From an uncultured Lachnospiraceae bacterium (GTDB lineage Bacteria > Bacillota > Clostridia > Lachnospirales > Lachnospiraceae), in contig CATKXY010000004.1 of the NCBI GenBank assembly GCA_949840915.1, positions 1-64,000 of the forward strand: 64,000 bases of DNA. Reading direction: 5' to 3'. Of the stretch, positions 38,442 to 46,265 are shown one piece after another. A program made the translations under genes and the position numbers. The stretch's first letter is position 1. Every line of letters starts with the position of its first letter. Below the pieces are notes generated by a model. That model was given only the letters and a program-made list of their open reading frames with translations, had not been told where the DNA came from and made no database searches.

Positions 38442-38645
38442 CTAACTCTCACATCTGTCAAATCCAGGGTTAAATGCATAGAAGTTCTTTGCATTCAACT
38501 TATCCTGTGTGATGCGCAAACCTTCACCGAAACGCTGGAAGTGCACAATCTCGCGGGCTCTCAAAAACTTGATGGGTTCGCATACATCCGGGTCTTTCAC
38601 AAGGCGCAGAATATTGTCATAAGTGCTGCGCGCTTTCTGCTCTGC
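38442..38645 (-). pseudogene. cotJC: cotJC, 3' part (separated from its 5' part by the element)
   Basis: C-terminal 66 codons of the spore-coat manganese-catalase-like protein CotJC, starting EQKARSTYDNILRLV and ending FNPGFDRCES. It contains the predicted metal ligands Glu (first residue, codon 136 of the joined gene) and His169 in EIVHFQRF. By itself it lacks a convincing start; a weak ATG at 38669 is created by element sequence. It aligns directly onto the truncated end of the 5' part at 45440, in the same frame, and the operon terminator follows it. It looks like a displaced exon-like half, not a decayed gene. Confidence 0.9.
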
Positions 38646-38665
38646 TGCAATCATATAAGAACAAC
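38641..38665. other. Left attachment site of the cotJC element
   Basis: Shared core TCTGC at 38641-38645 (also at 45438-45442). On the element side, 13 bp after the TC dinucleotide, comes TAAGAACAAC (38656-38665), the exact inverse of the arm at the other end. Left of the core is cotJC sequence. Confidence 0.8.
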
Positions 38666-38670
38666 TCATG

Positions 38671-38692
38671 CTTATCGAGCCTGCTCAATAAG
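38671..38692. repeat. 22-bp dyad between the attachment core and the recombinase gene
   Basis: CTTATCGAGC / GCTCAATAAG, a 10-bp inverted repeat with one mismatch and a 2-bp centre, just after the recombinase stop. No T run follows, so a protein-binding site is more likely than a terminator. Confidence 0.5.
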
Positions 38693-38699
38693 ATTCAGA

Positions 38700-40265
38700 T
38701 TAAAAGTTCCAGTGAATTTCAATCGGAACGTCCCTTGTTCCCGGAATACGTTTGCCGATGGATATATAATCAATCAGCGTTTCCACAATCTCGCGGGTAA
38801 GGTGTTCCAAGTTGGTGTATTGTTCAATCAGTTCGCGGCAATTGTCGCCCGCCGCAATTTTTTCTTCGATTTTAGCTAACTGCTTTTCTCCGTCAGCAAG
38901 AACATGCTCCAAACGGTCGCGTTCTGTGGTAAAGCCTTTTGACATTTCCACATAATCACTTTCGGAAATCAAGCCCTTTACCTTATCCATGTATAGCTCT
39001 CGGATACCTTTTGAATATTCATCAATCTTTTTCTGATAAATAGTTAGGTCAGAGAGCAGGCGGGCTTTTTGCCCTTGCAAGTTGTCGCAAAATTCAATAT
39101 TCTGCTCTAACTCGTCTTTGTCAAGATACTCCGCGGCCAAACGGTTAAGCTCGTCAATTACCGTTCTTTCCAGTCTGTCAACGGAGATAAACGAGCCGAT
39201 ACAAGCGTCTTTTGCTACATGGCGGTTTGAACATTGTAAATAATGTTTGCTGCCACGTTGGGGAGACGTTTTAGAGGAACGCATGGTATAACCGCAGTTA
39301 GCACAGCGGGCTTTTTTTGCGAATAAGCCGATTGTGCCAACATCAAAGGGCTTTGCCCTCTGTGCGACTAATGCTTGTACTCTCTCCCATAATTCCCGGT
39401 CAATAATCGGTTCATGTGTTCCCTCAACGCGATACCATTCTTCTTTAGGACGCGGCTTGTTTTGCTTTGTCTTATAGGACACACTACCGTATTTTCCTTG
39501 AACCATATTGCCGATATAGATTTCATTTGTCAGCATGTCAGAGATAGCAAAGTATTTCCAAAGGGTGCTGTTTTTCGTTTTCGGCTGTTGGTATCGTAAG
39601 CCATGCAGACGCTTATATTCTGTTGGATTTGGTATGCCCCGGTCATTGAGCATACGGGCGATTGCGGTTTTCCCGTAACCTTGTGCAAATAGGGTAAATA
39701 CTTCACGGACAACGACTGCGGCTTCTTCGTCGATTATCAAATGTCCCTTTTGATCGGGGTCTTTCTTGTAACCGTAAAGAGCAAATGCGCCAATGTGAAA
39801 ACCGTTTACCCGTCTGTTTGTTAAAACGCTGCGGATATTTTCAGACATATCCTCTAAATACCATTCATTGACAAGTCCGTTAATTTGGCGGGATTTTTTG
39901 TTTCCTTTGTTAGCGGTATCAGCATTATCAACGATACTGATGAAGCGAATACCCCAAATAGGGAATAGTCCGTGTATGTACTTTTCCACAAGTTCCAGTT
40001 CGCGGGTAAAACGCGATTGTGTCTTACAGAGGATAATATCAAATCTGCGCTGTTCTGCGTCTTTTAACAAACGATTAAATTCCGGTCGGCGGCGGTCAGA
40101 GCCGGTATAGTCGTCATCGCTGTAAATGTTGTAAAGTTCCCACCCCTGTTCCATAGCGTATTGCAGCAGCATAGATTTTTGATTTTGTATGCTGTTGCTG
40201 TCGTCAGTTTCAAATTGCTTGTTTCTATCTTCTTCGGATAAGCGGCAGTAAATAGCTACTTTCAT
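38700..40265 (-). CDS. Large serine recombinase (site-specific integrase/excisionase)
   Basis: About 521 residues. The resolvase catalytic domain begins MKVAIYCRLSEEDRN with the nucleophile Ser10, and continues with the arginines of CKTQSRFTRELE. A recombinase domain follows (GFHIGAFALYGYKKD), then a zinc ribbon (CANCGYTM...CSNRH...C) and a coiled-coil with helical C-terminus (QKARLLSDLTIYQKKIDEY). All usual domains are present, so it is predicted active. ATG 40265 has AAGGAG upstream. The gene lies only 55 bp inside the left attachment core, as expected for the enzyme that recombines these ends. Closest in type to SpoIVCA/TnpX-like recombinases; the assignment is by domain layout. Confidence 0.93.
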   Translation of the reverse strand: MKVAIYCRLSEEDRNKQFETDDSNSIQNQKSMLLQYAMEQGWELYNIYSDDDYTGSDRRRPEFNRLLKDAEQRRFDIILCKTQSRFTRELELVEKYIHGLFPIWGIRFISIVDNADTANKGNKKSRQINGLVNEWYLEDMSENIRSVLTNRRVNGFHIGAFALYGYKKDPDQKGHLIIDEEAAVVVREVFTLFAQGYGKTAIARMLNDRGIPNPTEYKRLHGLRYQQPKTKNSTLWKYFAISDMLTNEIYIGNMVQGKYGSVSYKTKQNKPRPKEEWYRVEGTHEPIIDRELWERVQALVAQRAKPFDVGTIGLFAKKARCANCGYTMRSSKTSPQRGSKHYLQCSNRHVAKDACIGSFISVDRLERTVIDELNRLAAEYLDKDELEQNIEFCDNLQGQKARLLSDLTIYQKKIDEYSKGIRELYMDKVKGLISESDYVEMSKGFTTERDRLEHVLADGEKQLAKIEEKIAAGDNCRELIEQYTNLEHLTREIVETLIDYISIGKRIPGTRDVPIEIHWNF

Positions 40266-40291
40266 GTTCTCATATCTCCTTAGAGACAGGA

Positions 40292-40326
40292 ACAAGCCTC
40301 CTCGTTTATGATTAGAGGGGGCTTGT
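40292..40326 (-). promoter_or_regulatory. Hairpin in the recombinase leader
   Basis: ACAAGCCTCCTC / GAGGGGGCTTGT, a 12-bp stem with a single non-Watson-Crick pair and an 11-nt loop. It lies between the 49-codon ORF and the recombinase start. No T run follows; it could modulate translation or RNA stability. Confidence 0.4.
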
Positions 40327-40328
40327 CA

Positions 40329-40478
40329 TTATCGCCGTACTGCGGCTATTCCCTTATTTTTTTCGATGTTATTGATAAGCTCAATCCATTTTTTTGTGAA
40401 TTGAGTTTTTGAAGTCGTGCTTTCGCCGCTTTTGAAAACACTCCTACAAACACTTTTCGATTTTTCGTTGTTTGCCAT
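40329..40478 (-). CDS. Small basic protein (49 aa) upstream of the recombinase
   Basis: Unrecognised family. The product starts MANNEKSKSVCRSVFKSGES and contains FTKKWIELINNIEKNKG. It is lysine-rich and probably helical at the C-terminus. The ATG at 40478 has a strong AAAGGGGGC site. The gene is 63 bp upstream of the recombinase and in the same direction, so the two are likely co-transcribed. Its size, charge and position would suit an accessory factor such as a recombination directionality factor, but nothing in the sequence proves this. Confidence 0.6.
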   Translation of the reverse strand: MANNEKSKSVCRSVFKSGESTTSKTQFTKKWIELINNIEKNKGIAAVRR

Positions 40479-40508
40479 AATTAGCCCCCTTTCAAGAATG
40501 GCTAATAC

Positions 40509-40538
40509 ACTATATGAAAAGTGGCAAGTCTACTATTA
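40509..40538 (-). promoter_or_regulatory. Candidate promoter for the 49-codon ORF and recombinase, sporulation-type resemblance
   Basis: Minus-strand CATATAGT (40509-40516) and TAATAGT (40532-40538) separated by 15 bp. This partly resembles the sigma-E pattern kmATAtt-N13-15-CATACAnT, with three mismatches. No good sigma-A -35 (TTGACA-like) sits 17 bp above TATAGT. The predicted transcript would start about 23 nt before ATG 40478. The match is weak. Confidence 0.25.
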
Positions 40539-40700
40539 CAACATAAGGGGCTTCAATCGGACGGCTGTTAGCATAGCTCCACGAGAATTCCTCTCTGCTC
40601 CGACTCCTTGTCCGGCTTGCGGTTCACTACACTTGGCGGTAAAAACCCGTGGCTGGATTTGCACCAACGAGATTAGTGCCATGCTCGGCACACAAAGAAA

Positions 40701-40727
40701 CGGCGGCTCTGATAATCAAAGCCGCCG
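40701..40727 (-). terminator. Probable terminator of the ABC-transporter operon
   Basis: 8-bp stem CGGCGGCT / AGCCGCCG, followed on the minus strand by TTTCTTTG. The remainder of the 40479-40838 gap holds the candidate promoter above and no other supported gene. Confidence 0.5.
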
Positions 40728-40838
40728 GAATAGAATAGGCGCGTGAATACATCTGCTTTTCGACGGCTTTTTTCTTATGCCGTCATTTGGCAGACTATAA
40801 CTATTAAATTTGCTTCATAATTGCTTAACACAACTATT

Positions 40839-42650
40839 TTACAATTCGTTGATTGTCTCAGTTACAGAAATATTCCGTATTCGTTTGGCAGGGGTATAGG
40901 TGGCTACCATAGCTGCAAGAACAACAAATAGAAGTATAACTATTAAGGAAAAAATGGGTAAATTCCAAACCGCACTGGGAAAATGTTCTGCAATAAGAAA
41001 ATCAAAAAGCAGTTTGCTTAATGGCAGTCCAACTATACAACCGACAACGCATCCCCAAAAAGAATAGGTAATCGCTTCGGCTGCAATCATTTTTGTGATT
41101 TGACGTTCATCCATACCTACGGCTCGCATAGCTCCATATTGTTTTATTCTTGCGGACACACTCATAGAAATGCTGTTGATAATATTCAGCACGGTAACTA
41201 GAGTGATGATAGCTAAAAATCCATATACACAAAATACAAAGGCCATATAGGTGCCCGATGTGCGCTGTTCTCGTTTGTCACGGAAACTGTAATTATCACC
41301 TACAGCAGTTTGGATGGCGTTGATATTTTCATCGGTTACCTCACTTGTGGTCTGTATCATAACAAGAGAATAGTCCGTTATCCCTGTTAAGCGGACGAAA
41401 GTTTCACTGGACGTAATAAGGGTAATTCTGCCATGTGTTAGACCGTCGTCGCTGAATGGGTCATATTTCAGCAAACCAGCAATTTCAAGGGTTTCATTCC
41501 CTACTAAAATGGTATCCCCAATCTTCCAAGGGCTACTTTGGTCGGAGGTAATCAGGACATAATTGCTGTCTCCATAAACCTTTGATAAGTCGCTTCCTCT
41601 TTTCAAAACACCATCTTTTTTTAGGCAATCCAAATCAAAATCATCATAAGAAATAAGGTCAATGGTACTGGAACGTGTTGTATCTCCATTCATGCCTGCC
41701 AAAACACCAAAAGAACTGCGACGTCCATAAACCTCTTTCACCCCATCCATTCCACGAATTATTTCAACTAAATCTGTGGAAATAGAATCGGCGTTACCAC
41801 TGCTTGAAATGTCAATATCAGAGGCGCTCGCTGATTGGGGCATAAGATAATTGACAAAATCAATCATAACCGAAAAGCTCAAAAGCAGGATTATACTAAG
41901 TGCAAAAGAGCCGGTCATTAGGATTAGATTTTTCTTTGCAGAAACAGCATGATTGATGCCAAGAGCCGTTTCTATTTTTATGAATCGTGTATTTGCTGAA
42001 TGACGGATTGTTTTATCGTTGCCCGCATTTCCTGATACCGCAGAAATAGGAGATACTTTTGAGGCACGCTTAGCGGGAGAACTTGCAGCGATTAGTACGG
42101 TAACAACCCCAACAAGAACACCGCTGAGAATACCAATGAAACTGATACCAAAAAGCGGAATGTTCGAAAATTCTTCTCCTACAAGAAAATGTAAAGCTGC
42201 ACATAATCCCCATGTAACTACAATTCCCAGAACATTACCAATAGGAATCGCTGTTTTACACCAGTTCAGGGCTTCCAGACGTACAAAGCGGATAATCTGC
42301 TGCCTGCTCATACCAATACAGCGCATCATCCCAAAAAATTTTGTTCTTTGGGCTACGCTGCTATTGATACTACTGGAAATCATCAAAACGCCTGCAATTA
42401 GTATCAGCAGGAATAAAACAATAGCAGCGGAAATAAGCGTTTGTCCCATTGAGCTACCAAGTAAATCCCCAATAGTGAAACTTCCATGTTTTCCAACCAA
42501 TCGGCTCTGTTCCATTCTAAATCCCATCTCAGCCATACTGAATATTGCTGTTACCATAAATACAGCAAAGATAATGCAAAGCAGTGTCATACGGTTTTGA
42601 CGTCGGTGTACTTTGGCAGAAATGGGAATTAAGCTAAGATAACTTTTCAT
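40839..42650 (-). CDS. FtsX-like ABC transporter permease
   Basis: About 603 residues with two FtsX-type membrane domains. Each carries the family signature before a helix: [20 protein letters not shown] and [21 protein letters not shown] large external domain lies between them. This layout is used by MacB/LolE/SalY-type exporters that act on peptides or lipoproteins. Next to a two-component system it suggests sensing and removal of an antimicrobial peptide, but the substrate is unknown. ATG 42650 (GGGAGGTG upstream) overlaps the ATPase stop by 4 bp. Confidence 0.85.
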
Positions 42651-43330
42651 TCGCGGCACCTCCCGAAATCCGTCAACACCCCGTCAGATACTTGTAAAAT
42701 GCGGTCAGCAGTTTGTGCAATACTCCGGCTATGCGTAATCATTATAATAGTCTGTTCGTACTTTTTTGCAGCTTCTTTTAACAAGGCAATTACCTCGCTA
42801 CTGTTTTGGGTATCAAGATTGCCCGTCGGTTCATCAGCAAGAATAAGAGCCGGACGGGTAATTAGCGCACGTCCTATTGCCACACGTTGCTGCTGTCCGC
42901 CGGATAATTGACTAGGTAAATGGTGGCGGCGTTCTTGCAAATTAAGTACCGTAAGCAATTCTTCCAAATGCTGTTTATCAGGTCTTTGGTAATCAAGTAA
43001 CACCGGGAAAATAATATTTTGTTCAACAGTCAACTCAGGAATTAAGTTAAAGCTCTGAAATATAAATCCAATGTTTCTGCGTCGAAAGACAGTCAAATTA
43101 CTATCTTTCATTGAAAAAATATCTTTTCCGTCTATAAACACCTTGCCGGAAGTGGGAGTATCAAGCGCACCTACCATATTTAGAAGTGTGCTTTTACCAG
43201 AGCCTGACTCACCTACGATTGCAACAAACTCGCCTTTTGGAACGGAAAAGCTGGCGTTTCTTAATGCGTGTACGGCAGCTTCGCCACTTCCATAAGTTTT
43301 ACAAATTGATTGAACTTCTAATAAATTCAT
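42647..43330 (-). CDS. ABC transporter ATPase (MacB/LolD type)
   Basis: About 227 residues with Walker [11 protein letters not shown]-loop [13 protein letters not shown], signature [15 protein letters not shown], Walker [13 protein letters not shown] and H-loop THS. Partner of the FtsX-like permease. ATG 43330 has AGAGGTGG upstream; starts further upstream have no site. Confidence 0.93.
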
Positions 43331-43398
43331 AAGATAACCACCTCTTTCTTGATATAGAAAGGTTATCATGTCAATCCTACTGTAAGATGACACTCAGC

Positions 43399-44436
43399 CT
43401 ACAATTTTGTAGGAATTAAAAAATTGATTGTAAAAATGCTTCCTCGGCCTAATTCACTATCAACTTCTATTGCTCCGTTATGTGCTTCAATAATAGACTT
43501 TGCAAGCGGCAGACCAAGACCAATTCCCTGCGTATCTTTAGAAAAACGGCTGCGATAAAATCGTTTGAAAATATGGTGTAAATCTTCCGGGTGAATGCCA
43601 CTTCCATTGTCTTTTACAATGATTTGAACAATGGACGCAAACTGCTTCCACTCAATACAGATAATATCTCCTTTTTTTGTGTGGTCGAAAGCGTTTTTAA
43701 CAATATTACTGATTGCTTCGACAATCCAATTATGGTCGCATAATAAAGAAACCGTATCGTCACCCGACAGATAGATTTTCTTCTCTTCCTGCTCAGCACG
43801 ATATGAAAAGTGTCTTTCAATGCGGTTTATCATCTCCGAAACATTTTCTATTGCTTTTTCTATTACGATTGTTCCGGCGTCAAGTTTTGTGATTTTTAAA
43901 AGGTTCTGTACCAGTATTTCTATACGGTCTAGCTCTTGTTCTGAAAGAACAGTAAACTCTTGAATTGCGGGTAAGTCCTTTGCTTCTTCCTGCAAGATAC
44001 CGTTATATACGTTAAGGGCAGCAAGTGGAGTTTTTAGCTGATGTGAAATATCAGATATAGTACCTTTCAGAAATCTTTTGGCATTTCCTTCATTTTCAGC
44101 ATGAGCGTTCAAAATAGAAACTAAAGAATTTACTTCATGGAACAGTCGATATAATTCACCCTCATCATCACATTCAATACGCGCATTTTGATCACCCGAA
44201 ATATAGTTTTTAATCTGCATGATTGCATTTTCCATAATTTTATTTTGTTTCTTAAAATACCAATATCCAACTGCCAATATAAGAATATCCATGCATAAAG
44301 ATGATACCAGCACATACCATGCTGCATTTTTTAATCCTAACATTATCAATGCAATAGATAGCATAGAAAACACTACAATGAAAAACATTATCCGGTAAAA
44401 TAATAGCTTGATTTTTCTATTTACAAGTATTTTCAT
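43399..44436 (-). CDS. Sensor histidine kinase
   Basis: About 345 residues. Two membrane helices near the N-terminus with almost no external loop, a HAMP-like linker (IKNYISGDQNARIECDDEGE), phospho-acceptor motif SDISHQLKTPLAAL, N box IVKNAFDHTK, and G boxes VKDNGSGIHP and GIGLGLPLAKSI. The short sensor loop resembles intramembrane kinases that work with peptide transporters. GAGGTG precedes ATG 44436. Cognate regulator is the next gene upstream. Confidence 0.9.
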   Translation of the reverse strand: MKILVNRKIKLLFYRIMFFIVVFSMLSIALIMLGLKNAAWYVLVSSLCMDILILAVGYWYFKKQNKIMENAIMQIKNYISGDQNARIECDDEGELYRLFHEVNSLVSILNAHAENEGNAKRFLKGTISDISHQLKTPLAALNVYNGILQEEAKDLPAIQEFTVLSEQELDRIEILVQNLLKITKLDAGTIVIEKAIENVSEMINRIERHFSYRAEQEEKKIYLSGDDTVSLLCDHNWIVEAISNIVKNAFDHTKKGDIICIEWKQFASIVQIIVKDNGSGIHPEDLHHIFKRFYRSRFSKDTQGIGLGLPLAKSIIEAHNGAIEVDSELGRGSIFTINFLIPTKL

Positions 44437-44444
44437 TGCGCACC

Positions 44445-45131
44445 TCAATCCGTTGTATTCCATTTGTACCCCATACGACGAACCGTTATTATTTTTTTCG
44501 GTTCGCCGGGGTTATCTTCGATTTTTGTGCGAAGTCTGCGAATATACACAGTAAGCGTATTACTATCAATATAGTTTTCGTCGCAATCCCAAAGTTTGCT
44601 CAAAATTTGCTCTGGTGAAAGAACAATATTCGCGTTCTCTATGAAAAAGCAAAGCAGTTTATATTCACTTGCCGTTAATTCCAGCAGTTCATTGTTCTTA
44701 TAAACTTCTCTTTTCAATAGATTTATTTTTATTCCATTGGAATCCAATTCGGTATCTGCTTGATTAAAATTATCACTTCGGCGAAGCAAAGCATTTATTC
44801 TTGACAAAAATACTGCTAATTTGAAAGGTTTTGTAATATAATCATCACCGCCTATATCCAGTCCCATTATGATGTTTGTTTCTTCATCAGCCGCAGTAAG
44901 AAACATAATCGGTACCTTTGAGGTTTCTCGGATTTTTTGACATAAATCATAACCAGAACCGTCCGGAAGCGATACGTCTAAAATGACTAAATCGTATTTG
45001 CCATTTATCCATTTTGTTTCCGCTTCAAAGCATGTCCGAGCAATATCCACTTCATATCCCTGTTTCTTAATAGCAAAAGATAAGCCGCTAATTAGACTCA
45101 CATCATCTTCAACAAAGAAAATGTGTTACAT
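44445..45131 (-). pseudogene. OmpR-family response regulator with a stop at codon 2
   Basis: The receiver-plus-winged-helix protein is otherwise intact: phospho-acceptor Asp in YDLVILDVSLPDG, Lys in DDYITKPF, DNA-binding domain with ELTASEYKLLCFF and YIDSNTLTVYIRRLR. The expected start ATG at 45131 (with AAAGGA upstream) is followed at once by TAA, and then in frame by HIFFVEDDV, the first strand with the acidic pocket. The next in-frame standard start is GTG 45101, after that strand, so its product would lack the acidic residues needed for phosphorylation. A rare AUU start at 45122 would rescue it. Sequencing error is possible. Confidence 0.75.
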
Positions 45132-45169
45132 TTACTATCACCGTCCTTTCCTCAAACTATATCCATATA

Positions 45170-45198
45170 ATTGTAATCGGATAGCCGAACAATAGCAA
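45170..45198 (-). promoter_or_regulatory. Promoter of the two-component/ABC operon
   Basis: Minus-strand -35 TTGCTA (45193-45198), 17-bp spacer, -10 TACAAT (45170-45175), about 40 bp before the original response-regulator start. Confidence 0.5.
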
Positions 45199-45287
45199 GT
45201 GTATGGTATGCTTTATTCCTATCCATACTATGATGTGTGTAATCAAATTTTGAAAGAGAGATGAACTATACAATGTAGCTGGGTGAA

Positions 45288-45383
45288 ATGATTATAAAGC
45301 AGAATAAAGAAAAGTTTGATTTTAAGACTTTCGGACAGGCTGTCAAAGCGGAAAGAAAAGCAAAGGGCTTCACAAGCAAACGG
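45288..45383 (+). pseudogene. Truncated XRE-type regulator, N-terminal remnant
   Basis: About 32 codons starting MIIKQNKEKFDFKTFGQAVK and ending KAKGFTSKR. They look like the first helix region of XRE repressors in integrative elements (FxxFGxAxKxxRxxxG). The helix-turn-helix is missing, and the frame then runs through the element end and into cotJC antisense. It suggests the element lost DNA at this end. Confidence 0.5.
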
Positions 45384-45414
45384 GGTAGCATGATTTATAG
45401 GGGTTTCCGGCTTT

Positions 45415-45442
45415 GTTGTTCTTACGCAGTCGTACCATCTGC
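45415..45442. other. Right attachment site of the cotJC element
   Basis: Arm GTTGTTCTTA (45415-45424), a 13-bp spacer, then the core TCTGC (45438-45442) followed by cotJC. The arm is the exact inverse of 38656-38665 and equally far from the TC dinucleotide. Confidence 0.8.
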
Positions 45443-45844
45443 CGCCATATCTTCCACCAGATCCGTGATGATGTCACCTTTCACCTGAAACTCACAGGCA
45501 TTGAAGGGAATGCCCCCGGCAGCCTGAGGCCATACGCCTACGGTATGATCCACATAATATTTGTCGAATCCGCTCTTCTCAATTTCTTCCATGGAGAGAT
45601 TTCTGGTCAGCTGATGCACGATGGCGCCGATCATCTCCAGATGTGCAAGCTCCTCGGTTCCGATGTCTGTGAGAAGACCGGCCACCTCTTTGTAAGGCAT
45701 GGAATAGCGCTGGGACAGATAACGCATACTGGCTGCCAGCTCGCCGTCGGGCCCGCCGAACTGGGAGATGATCACCTGGGCCAGCTTGGCGTTAGGTTCT
45801 TTGATGTTTACGGGAAACTGCAATCTTTTTTCATAACTCCACAT
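45422..45844 (-). pseudogene. cotJC: cotJC, 5' part (truncated by the element)
   Basis: N-terminal 135 codons of the CotJC spore-coat protein, from MWSYEKRLQFPVNIKEPN to LVEDMAA, then five element-encoded codons (DGTTA) and a stop. Predicted di-manganese ligands by analogy with Mn catalases are Glu35 (DGELAA), Glu65 and His68 (TEELAHLEM); the other two ligands are on the 3' part. As it stands the product would be 140 residues and lack half the metal site. ATG 45844 overlaps the cotJB stop by one base. Confidence 0.92.
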
Positions 45845-46098
45845 TATCCACACACTCCTTCCCAGGGCAGCGGCGCTGCGCCCCATCTCCACTCCTGATT
45901 ACTCTCGGCGAGTGACAGCTTCAACGGATAATAAATTCTGGAGAACTCTCTCTCCAGCTGTGTCTTAATGCGGTTGTAATGATTGTAATACTCCATGGCG
46001 TTGGTGTCATAGGGATGGGTATCCAGATAAAGCGCAAGCTCAATCAGCGTAAAATCCAAGATACCGATATCTCTGAGCATCTGTTCCTTATTGTTCAT
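45844..46098 (-). CDS. cotJB: Spore coat protein CotJB
   Basis: 84 residues, starting MNNKEQMLRDIGILDFTLIE, with HPYDTNAMEYYNHYNRIK typical of CotJB. Made in the mother cell and incorporated in the coat with CotJA and CotJC in Bacillus. AAGGAG lies nine bases before ATG 46098, so the longer in-frame extension upstream is not used. Confidence 0.92.
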   Translation of the reverse strand: MNNKEQMLRDIGILDFTLIELALYLDTHPYDTNAMEYYNHYNRIKTQLEREFSRIYYPLKLSLAESNQEWRWGAAPLPWEGVCG

Positions 46099-46265
46099 GA
46101 TACACATCTCCTTCCCGTGAAAGGTTTGTTTAATTCCGGAAAGATTGTGCCGATACAATATGCCTTTTCCAGATCTTCATACATTTTGTCGAAGCGCTGC
46201 CAGGGCACATAAGCCATAGCCACGGGAAACTGTTCACAGTGATCGTCAAACTTGATTTCCTGCAT
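46095..46265 (-). CDS. cotJA: Spore coat-associated protein CotJA
   Basis: 56 residues (MQEIKFDDHCEQFPVAMAYV...). The core PVAMAYVPWQ...YEDLEKAYCIGTIFPELNKPF is the CotJA signature. First gene of cotJA-cotJB-cotJC; it overlaps cotJB by 4 bp. ATG 46265 has GAGAGGAAA upstream. Confidence 0.92.
   Translation of the reverse strand: MQEIKFDDHCEQFPVAMAYVPWQRFDKMYEDLEKAYCIGTIFPELNKPFTGRRCVS

Follow-up and report, generated by a model that had tools for sequence, protein, structure and literature searches.

A spore-coat catalase gene in two pieces

Can a spore-coat gene that lies in two pieces on either side of a recombinase gene still serve the spore, and how would its pieces come together? This question is raised by a 64,000-nucleotide stretch of DNA from an uncultured Lachnospiraceae bacterium (assembly GCA_949840915.1, contig CATKXY010000004.1, positions 1 to 64,000; "the window" throughout), in which the spore-coat gene cotJC is interrupted by an element encoding a large serine recombinase (LSR). 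Our favored answer, to which we give a probability of roughly 0.7 from sequence comparisons, is a site-specific mobile element that would be excised in the mother cell, with sigma-E turning on a candidate 49-amino-acid directionality factor, the LSR carrying out the excision, and sigma-K reading the rebuilt cotJABC operon.

On the minus strand, cotJA, cotJB and codons 1-135 of cotJC are followed by 6,797 bp and then by codons 136-201, the ATG of cotJC lying at 45844 and the stop codon of its 3' part at 38444-38442 (Table 1). The crossover point falls inside codon 136, between its second and third base (GA|G): at the 5' break this codon reads GA|T (45439-45437), the 3' part opens with GA|G (38642-38640), and 6,797 bp separate the two GA cores. 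Joined at these cores, the halves give 201 open codons plus a stop, and seven uninterrupted congeneric cotJC genes, chosen by us, align to the joined flanks over 60 bases on each side without gap or scar. The initial annotation of the window had proposed a split of cotJC after codon 135, the sequence TCTGC at both junctions (present on the plus strand), a complete recombinase and an in-frame rejoining to 201 codons, and had suggested looking for uninterrupted cotJC in related genomes; the coordinates, the open frames and the congeneric genes bear it out. The window recombinase indeed has the complete domain set of its class (Resolvase catalytic domain, Recombinase domain and Zn ribbon).

Both halves match the Mn_catalase family (PF05067), and the 5' half by itself is without the last third of the protein. 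Codon 136 encodes the conserved glutamate of an AAEQKAR motif that aligns with AAEAGAR of the solved protein Alr3090, whose match heads a list of manganese catalases; we take this glutamate to be a metal ligand. An intact second cotJC, which the initial annotation had regarded as speaking against its reading, was not found with PF05067 in the window genome, which is 84.6% complete in 34 contigs, so that a second copy may have been missed.

A recombinase family tied to codon 136

Named genomes were scanned with an LSR alignment, and counts out of 80 refer to the best 80 loci. LSR matches at E <= 1e-60 were present in 129 of 299 genomes of the window's family. At 12 of the 14 nearest loci outside the window genome (L034-L046 and L048; 71-95% identity) a cotJC half adjoins the LSR, and at 75 of the best 80 loci a cotJC half broken at codon 136 ("site 2" hereafter) is found within or next to the element, and 13 of these 75 have both halves in the fetched stretch. 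Given this recurrence, the break at codon 136 is not due to chance. The five exceptions are L084, L108 and L151, not seen at cotJC, and L152 and L156, truncated at a contig end or close to one; together with L219, also cut off by a contig end, they make up the six other members of an LSR clade of 84 (support 0.93) that contains all 78 site-2 LSRs placed in the tree. Codon 136 is used as well by LSRs of the window's genus with only 55% identity. Carriers span many genera of Lachnospiraceae, Oscillospiraceae and their relatives and include Roseburia faecis, Clostridium fessum, Parablautia intestinalis, Diplocloster modestus, Blautia sp. An249, Flintibacter muris, Pseudoflavonifractor sp. and Anaerotignum.

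All 20 whole genomes that we chose from the best 80 loci have cotJC in pieces, and 18 of them are without an intact copy as read from the match table. A draft as fragmented and incomplete as the window genome could in principle produce a split gene by chimeric assembly, but cotJC pieces broken at the same codon are found in isolate records of Roseburia faecis M72, Clostridium fessum, Parablautia intestinalis and Diplocloster modestus and in the single-contig genome G341, and we consider an assembly artefact wholly improbable. Where the pieces could be extracted they are open: 60 of 61 cotJC 3' parts run to the stop codon and the remaining one (L114) to the contig end, and all 20 of the 5' parts with a start are open.

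The junctions share recognizable attachment sites. Common to the attL junctions, with variants, are the arms ...GCNGCNGA|TGGTRC...TAAGAACAAC, and common to the attR junctions, also with variants, are GTTGTTCTTATATGATTGCA(G/C)CA|GAGCARAARGC; around the GA core, the two element arms come close to being inverted repeats. At 13 of the 75 loci the element is flipped, so that the LSR lies beside the 5' half of cotJC and the core, when read relative to the LSR, is TC. Neither an excised or rejoined junction nor a circle is present in the window's own assembly, and the one pattern for an attP-like circle junction that we applied had no match in the analysed loci.

Several side observations concern this family. 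At L100/L037 (Parablautia intestinalis) an apparent tandem pair of elements sits in cotJC, the second LSR being degenerate and an attP-like junction lying between the two. Three loci (L015, L105 and L078) carry another piece of the cotJC 3' end about 1-2 kb after an intact cotJC or a 3' half, as if an element had come with a replacement end of its own. Contigs from viral collections contributed 17 LSR loci, with cotJC at 6 of the 11 examined; on five such contigs (L213, L214, L216, L217 and L218) the LSR is no more than 0.3 kb from cotJC, so some of these contigs are host islands or prophages at site 2.

A small gene beside the recombinase and its putative sporulation promoter

Directly upstream of the LSR lies a small open reading frame (ORF) that a profile search recovered at 75 of 76 close loci (earlier regular-expression patterns had matched 5 loci and then 54 of 76) and at none of 14 LSRs elsewhere. 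It also accompanies the LSR in all three distant site-2 elements from the window's genus, a near-identical pair among them, and the sole close locus without it is L151, one of the loci not seen at cotJC. The list of its relatives holds 60 proteins including itself, none with a Pfam family or a functional name, and the window's small ORF has no match in NCBIfam. We dropped an identification with TnpW of Tn4451-type elements (TnpX/TnpW), which neither Pfam nor NCBIfam backs with a family.

Upstream of the small ORF, the sigma-E-type motif ATA-N16/17-CATANNNT is present at 54 of 74 loci (42/54 nonredundant), compared to a mean of 1.12 and a maximum of 4 in 200 dinucleotide shuffles and to 2/54 on the reverse strand. 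With CATANNNT as anchor, ATA occupies spacer 17 in 30 of 50 cases and any other spacer in 4 or fewer, and a looser sigma-E pattern fits only 2 of 15 control LSRs. The cotJA upstream regions look different: a sigma-K-type pattern, AC-N15..17-CATANNNTA, occurs in 40 of 57 (100 shuffles: mean 0.6, maximum 3), and AC takes spacer 16 in 35 of 47; the sigma-E-type pattern is found in 2 of 57. A sigma-E motif before the small ORF and a sigma-K motif before cotJA suggest an order in which excision would come first and transcription of the operon second.

The LSR itself is preceded at 29 of 74 loci by a sigma-A-like motif, located between the small ORF and the LSR where it was read. In the window element a 10-nt gap relative to these relatives (around 40300-40330) removes the -10 of this promoter and leaves the sigma-E-type motif in place, so the LSR there may depend on the sigma-E-type promoter. 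We claim no SpoIIID sites: the B. subtilis consensus fits 4 of the 54 promoter 38-mers. The C. difficile consensus (PMC5025042) fits none of these 54.

The hosts have the corresponding sporulation genes, with spoIVA in 18 of 18 examined and a match to the sigma-K model at E <= 1e-30 in all 18, above the model's own cut-off in one. Separately, a sigma-K/E-family gene of G367 (Clostridium fessum), probably sigK, lies in two pieces about 20 kb apart (C1:659043-659399 and 679202-679486), and only the first half of such a gene was matched in G368; skin-like elements may sit in the sigma-K/E-family gene of these two genomes, too.

Other break points in cotJC

Codon 136 is one of several places at which cotJC is recurrently broken, the three others being codons ~29 (site 4), ~62 (site 1) and ~175 (site 3). 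Breaks at codon ~62 (L072 in G012, L127, L130, L068 in G014, L073 and L086) enclose gaps of ~3 to 39 kb and go with LSRs of a different group, which share 26-29% identity with the window LSR and 36-67% among themselves; only 2 of 6 of them are preceded by the sigma-E pattern. Breaks at codon ~175, in the motif QRFGEA (L101, L103, L112, L124, L145, L025, L045 and L066), often come with a short in-frame replacement C terminus, and those at codon ~29 lie before GGPDGE (L036/L089, L040, L116 and L161, as well as G392, G397 and G398). Weak recombinase matches are found 0.3-1.5 kb beyond the site-3 breaks of L117, L124 and L112 and 0.3-0.6 kb beyond the site-4 breaks of L116 and L161.

We surveyed 110 genomes of the window's family, almost one per genus, reading breaks from the match table and inspecting the DNA of a minority. 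cotJC was above the cut-off in 71 of the 110 genomes, and both sides of a break were seen in 23 of these 71, with 20 of the 23 lacking an intact copy. By site, 11 of the 23 are broken at site 1, 6 at site 2 and 9 at site 4, three genomes with breaks at two sites being counted at each; at site 4, many of the short 5' pieces match weakly. Six more genomes (G099, G116, G191, G195, G096 and G154) have one-sided or odd breaks. The gene is cut two or three times in G014, L130 and Blautia sp. An249.

These recurrent break points, some with LSR-like genes adjoining, make cotJC a landing site. Whether this extends to a general rule is more tentative, and we would put the odds at a little under even: cotJC could serve spore-forming gut Clostridia as a general safe harbour for mobile DNA, in which several distinct serine-integrase families would use different conserved motifs (codons ~29, 62, 136 and 175) and excision timed to the mother cell would let conjugative and cargo-bearing elements reside in a coat gene nearly free of cost. 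Sigma-E would then act as the excision clock, and sigma-K would read the repaired gene, sometimes after the departure of two or three elements.

Proposed excision in the mother cell and its alternatives

At the level of sequence, the split, the predicted in-frame rejoining, an LSR clade bound to one codon, the small ORF, the sigma-E-type motif and the sigma-K-type motif at most relatives' cotJA are established. Together with the analogy to known systems they suggest an order of events in the mother cell. The LSR would integrate the element within codon 136, directly after its second base; in the mother cell of a sporulating host, sigma-E would switch on the 49-amino-acid protein as a directionality factor; this factor and the LSR would recombine attL with attR and release the element as a circle; and sigma-K would then transcribe the rebuilt cotJABC. 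As the mother cell dies, the element would stay in the spore chromosome and lose nothing, and the host would keep its coat catalase. Because the relatives' elements sit at the same codon and have a switch that looks specific to sporulation, cotJC is probably repaired in the mother cell at each sporulation. The initial annotation had called the element skin-like and had it controlling cotJC or at the least tolerated by it. The likeness to skin has gained strong indirect support from the conserved small ORF behind a sigma-E-type motif and the sigma-K-type motif at host cotJ operons; tolerance through removal in the mother cell is the better supported half of the alternative, and the element, as part of a family that moves between genera, is not a private regulatory switch.

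The same data could come from an ordinary site-specific mobile element that targets a conserved codon in a coat gene the cell can do without; it would inactivate cotJC without developmental excision and leave its halves intact because the insertions are recent. We regard this as unlikely but as deserving serious weight. In most of the 70 closest pairs the synonymous divergence (dS) of the LSR is far below that of cotJC (for the window and L090, an LSR dS of 0.20 against saturation over the cotJC stretch compared), and within one genus the relationships among LSRs are at odds with those among cotJC genes, so that many insertions may be recent. With elements moving between genera, open cotJC halves fit recent insertion as well as function. 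Ratios of nonsynonymous to synonymous change (dN/dS) on split halves are very low in several pairs (0 nonsynonymous and 25 synonymous changes in G392/G397, 6.5 and 49.5 in G358/G359); given the discordance, the insertions may post-date divergence, and we base no conclusion about selection on these values. Serine integrases in general often use one conserved gene site (PMC10083194). In some relatives, moreover, the LSR module carries conjugative or mobilizable elements, with a MobQ relaxase above its cut-off in L112 and, in the R. faecis relative, a cut piece of a TcpF-like ATPase below the whole-protein cut-off; for such conjugative versions, excision would have to take place during growth as well. 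Coat genes of the catalase type seem dispensable: C. difficile with insertions in the homologues cotCB and cotD had no significant coat defect (PMC11222575), and a similar view is taken in PMC3533761.

Further points against excision in the mother cell concern the switch. The role of the small ORF as a candidate directionality factor is read from its position, size and promoter motif. The strict sigma-E pattern is absent at 20 of 74 loci, among them an Oscillospiraceae-type group (L112, L113, L115, L118, L120, L122, L124 and L137), and at each of the three distant elements from the window's genus. Within the spacer, an AC at distance 11 (31/50) is as frequent as ATA at 17, which leaves the conservation partly unexplained by sigma-E, and the motif copies share descent, the 38-mers collapsing to 21 when clustered at 75% identity. 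The window's own cotJA upstream region departs from the sigma-K pattern at one position. For B. subtilis, cotJC is given as sigma-E-dependent (PMC3416734), so the order sigma-E then sigma-K need not hold everywhere. Even so, an ordinary element leaves unexplained the conserved sigma-E-type motif before the gene adjacent to the LSR and the frequent breaks of the genus-level survey, mostly in genomes without an intact copy, and not one frameshift or premature stop was found among the extracted cotJC 3' halves.

Relation to known intervening elements

Intervening elements are known from sigK, spsM, spoVFB, gerE and yabG (PMC10747680, PMC5595907, PMC4191935), and vrin is also named in PMC4191935. 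The element described here has two hallmarks of the skin type, namely insertion within a coding sequence whose flanks join in frame at a short shared core and a serine recombinase of its own. The skin element of Clostridioides difficile (CD1231 as LSR, CD1234 as factor) is likewise an LSR-coding insert in a mother-cell gene (PMC5025042); its LSR is constitutive and its 53-amino-acid factor is under sigma-E (PMC5025042, PMC10747680), and the predicted small protein of the cotJC element is encoded behind a sigma-E-type motif. The skin LSR is expressed from a sigma-A promoter (PMC5025042), to be compared with the sigma-A-like motif at a minority of cotJC loci and its missing -10 in the window copy. 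Unlike skin, which targets a sigma factor gene, the cotJC element targets a coat catalase gene, has its small ORF and LSR as neighbours, belongs to a family that is mobile across genera, comes with no claimed SpoIIID site and is known here from its sequence.

In Bacillus cereus, gin is also a non-phage intervening element in a mother-cell gene with its own serine recombinase, and GirC with the extra factor GirX rebuilds gerE; it differs in its three serine recombinases, its length of 28.6 kb, its 9-bp shared sequence and its target gene (PMC5595907). SP-beta in spsM (PMC4191935) as well as vfbin in spoVFB and yin in yabG (PMC10747680) share the insertion into a sporulation gene and a serine-type recombinase, and a putative sigma-K promoter precedes the putative factor of yin (PMC10747680), but these three are prophages or prophage-like and their targets are other than cotJC. 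The window LSR resembles multi-targeting LSRs in its C-terminal DUF4368, and the DUF4368-rich LSR clade is mostly multi-targeting (PMC10083194); with one codon used at nearly all of the best 80 loci, the cotJC LSR clade is a marked exception.

As far as the open-licence full texts, titles and abstracts that we searched go, no cotJC intervening element has been described. Within this literature the mechanism would be of a known kind; what is new is the target gene, the LSR clade dedicated to it, the likely factor and the breadth. The rearrangements of sporulation genes named in the sources cited are few and isolated, most of them prophages, whereas here one coat gene is broken at one codon in many genera. 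If excision in the mother cell is true, programmed DNA excision would be routine in the sporulation of common gut bacteria, there would be a reason why genomes list cotJC in pieces, and a compact pair of LSR and small protein with a defined attB would be available. A module with a putative developmental switch also makes the order of a sigma-E-dependent factor followed by a sigma-K-dependent target testable, and it raises the question of how conjugative versions would be excised in growing cells if the factor is made only in the doomed mother cell.

Contents of the element

Besides the LSR and the small ORF, the window element carries a two-component system and an ABC transporter as cargo (Table 1), and no relaxase or conjugation genes were seen in its ORF list and domain matches.

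Table 1. Features of the cotJ operon and its intervening element, in order of transcription (window coordinates).
Feature	Position	Strand	Remarks
cotJA, first operon gene	46095..46265	-	upstream AC-N16-CATACTATG, 1 mismatch to the sigma-K-type pattern
cotJB	45844..46098	-	
cotJC 5' part, codons 1-135	45440..45844	-	PF05067 profile 1-151; open frame
attL: core GA (45439-45438) and element arm TGGTACGACTGCGTAAGAACAAC	45415..45439	-	similar arms in relatives' junctions
Cargo response regulator, called from an internal GTG	44445..45101	-	
Cargo sensor histidine kinase	43399..44463	-	HATPase_c, HisKA
Cargo ABC transporter ATPase	42647..43393	-	ABC_tran
Cargo FtsX-type ABC permease	40839..42659	-	FtsX
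Sigma-E-type promoter motif ATA-N17-CATATAGT	40509..40536	-	
Small ORF, 49 aa, candidate recombination directionality factor	40329..40478	-	profile match at relatives' loci
LSR, 521 aa, ATG at 40265	38700..40265	-	Resolvase, Recombinase, Zn-ribbon, DUF4368
attR: element arm AGTTGTTCTTATATGATTGCAGCA and core GA (38642-38641)	38641..38666	-	similar arms in relatives' junctions
cotJC 3' part, codons 136-201 and stop	38442..38642	-	PF05067 profile 147-197; open frame

The apparent ATG of the response regulator, at 45131, is directly followed by an in-frame stop (45126-45131). The cargo may be decaying while the LSR and the small ORF are intact. Taken further, this stop and the gap over the -10 of the sigma-A-like promoter could mean that cotJC is a pseudogene in the window's lineage and the element a dead remnant. 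We hold this reading to be very improbable, given that the LSR, the small ORF, both attachment-site arms and both cotJC halves are intact and that the window element retains its sigma-E-type motif.

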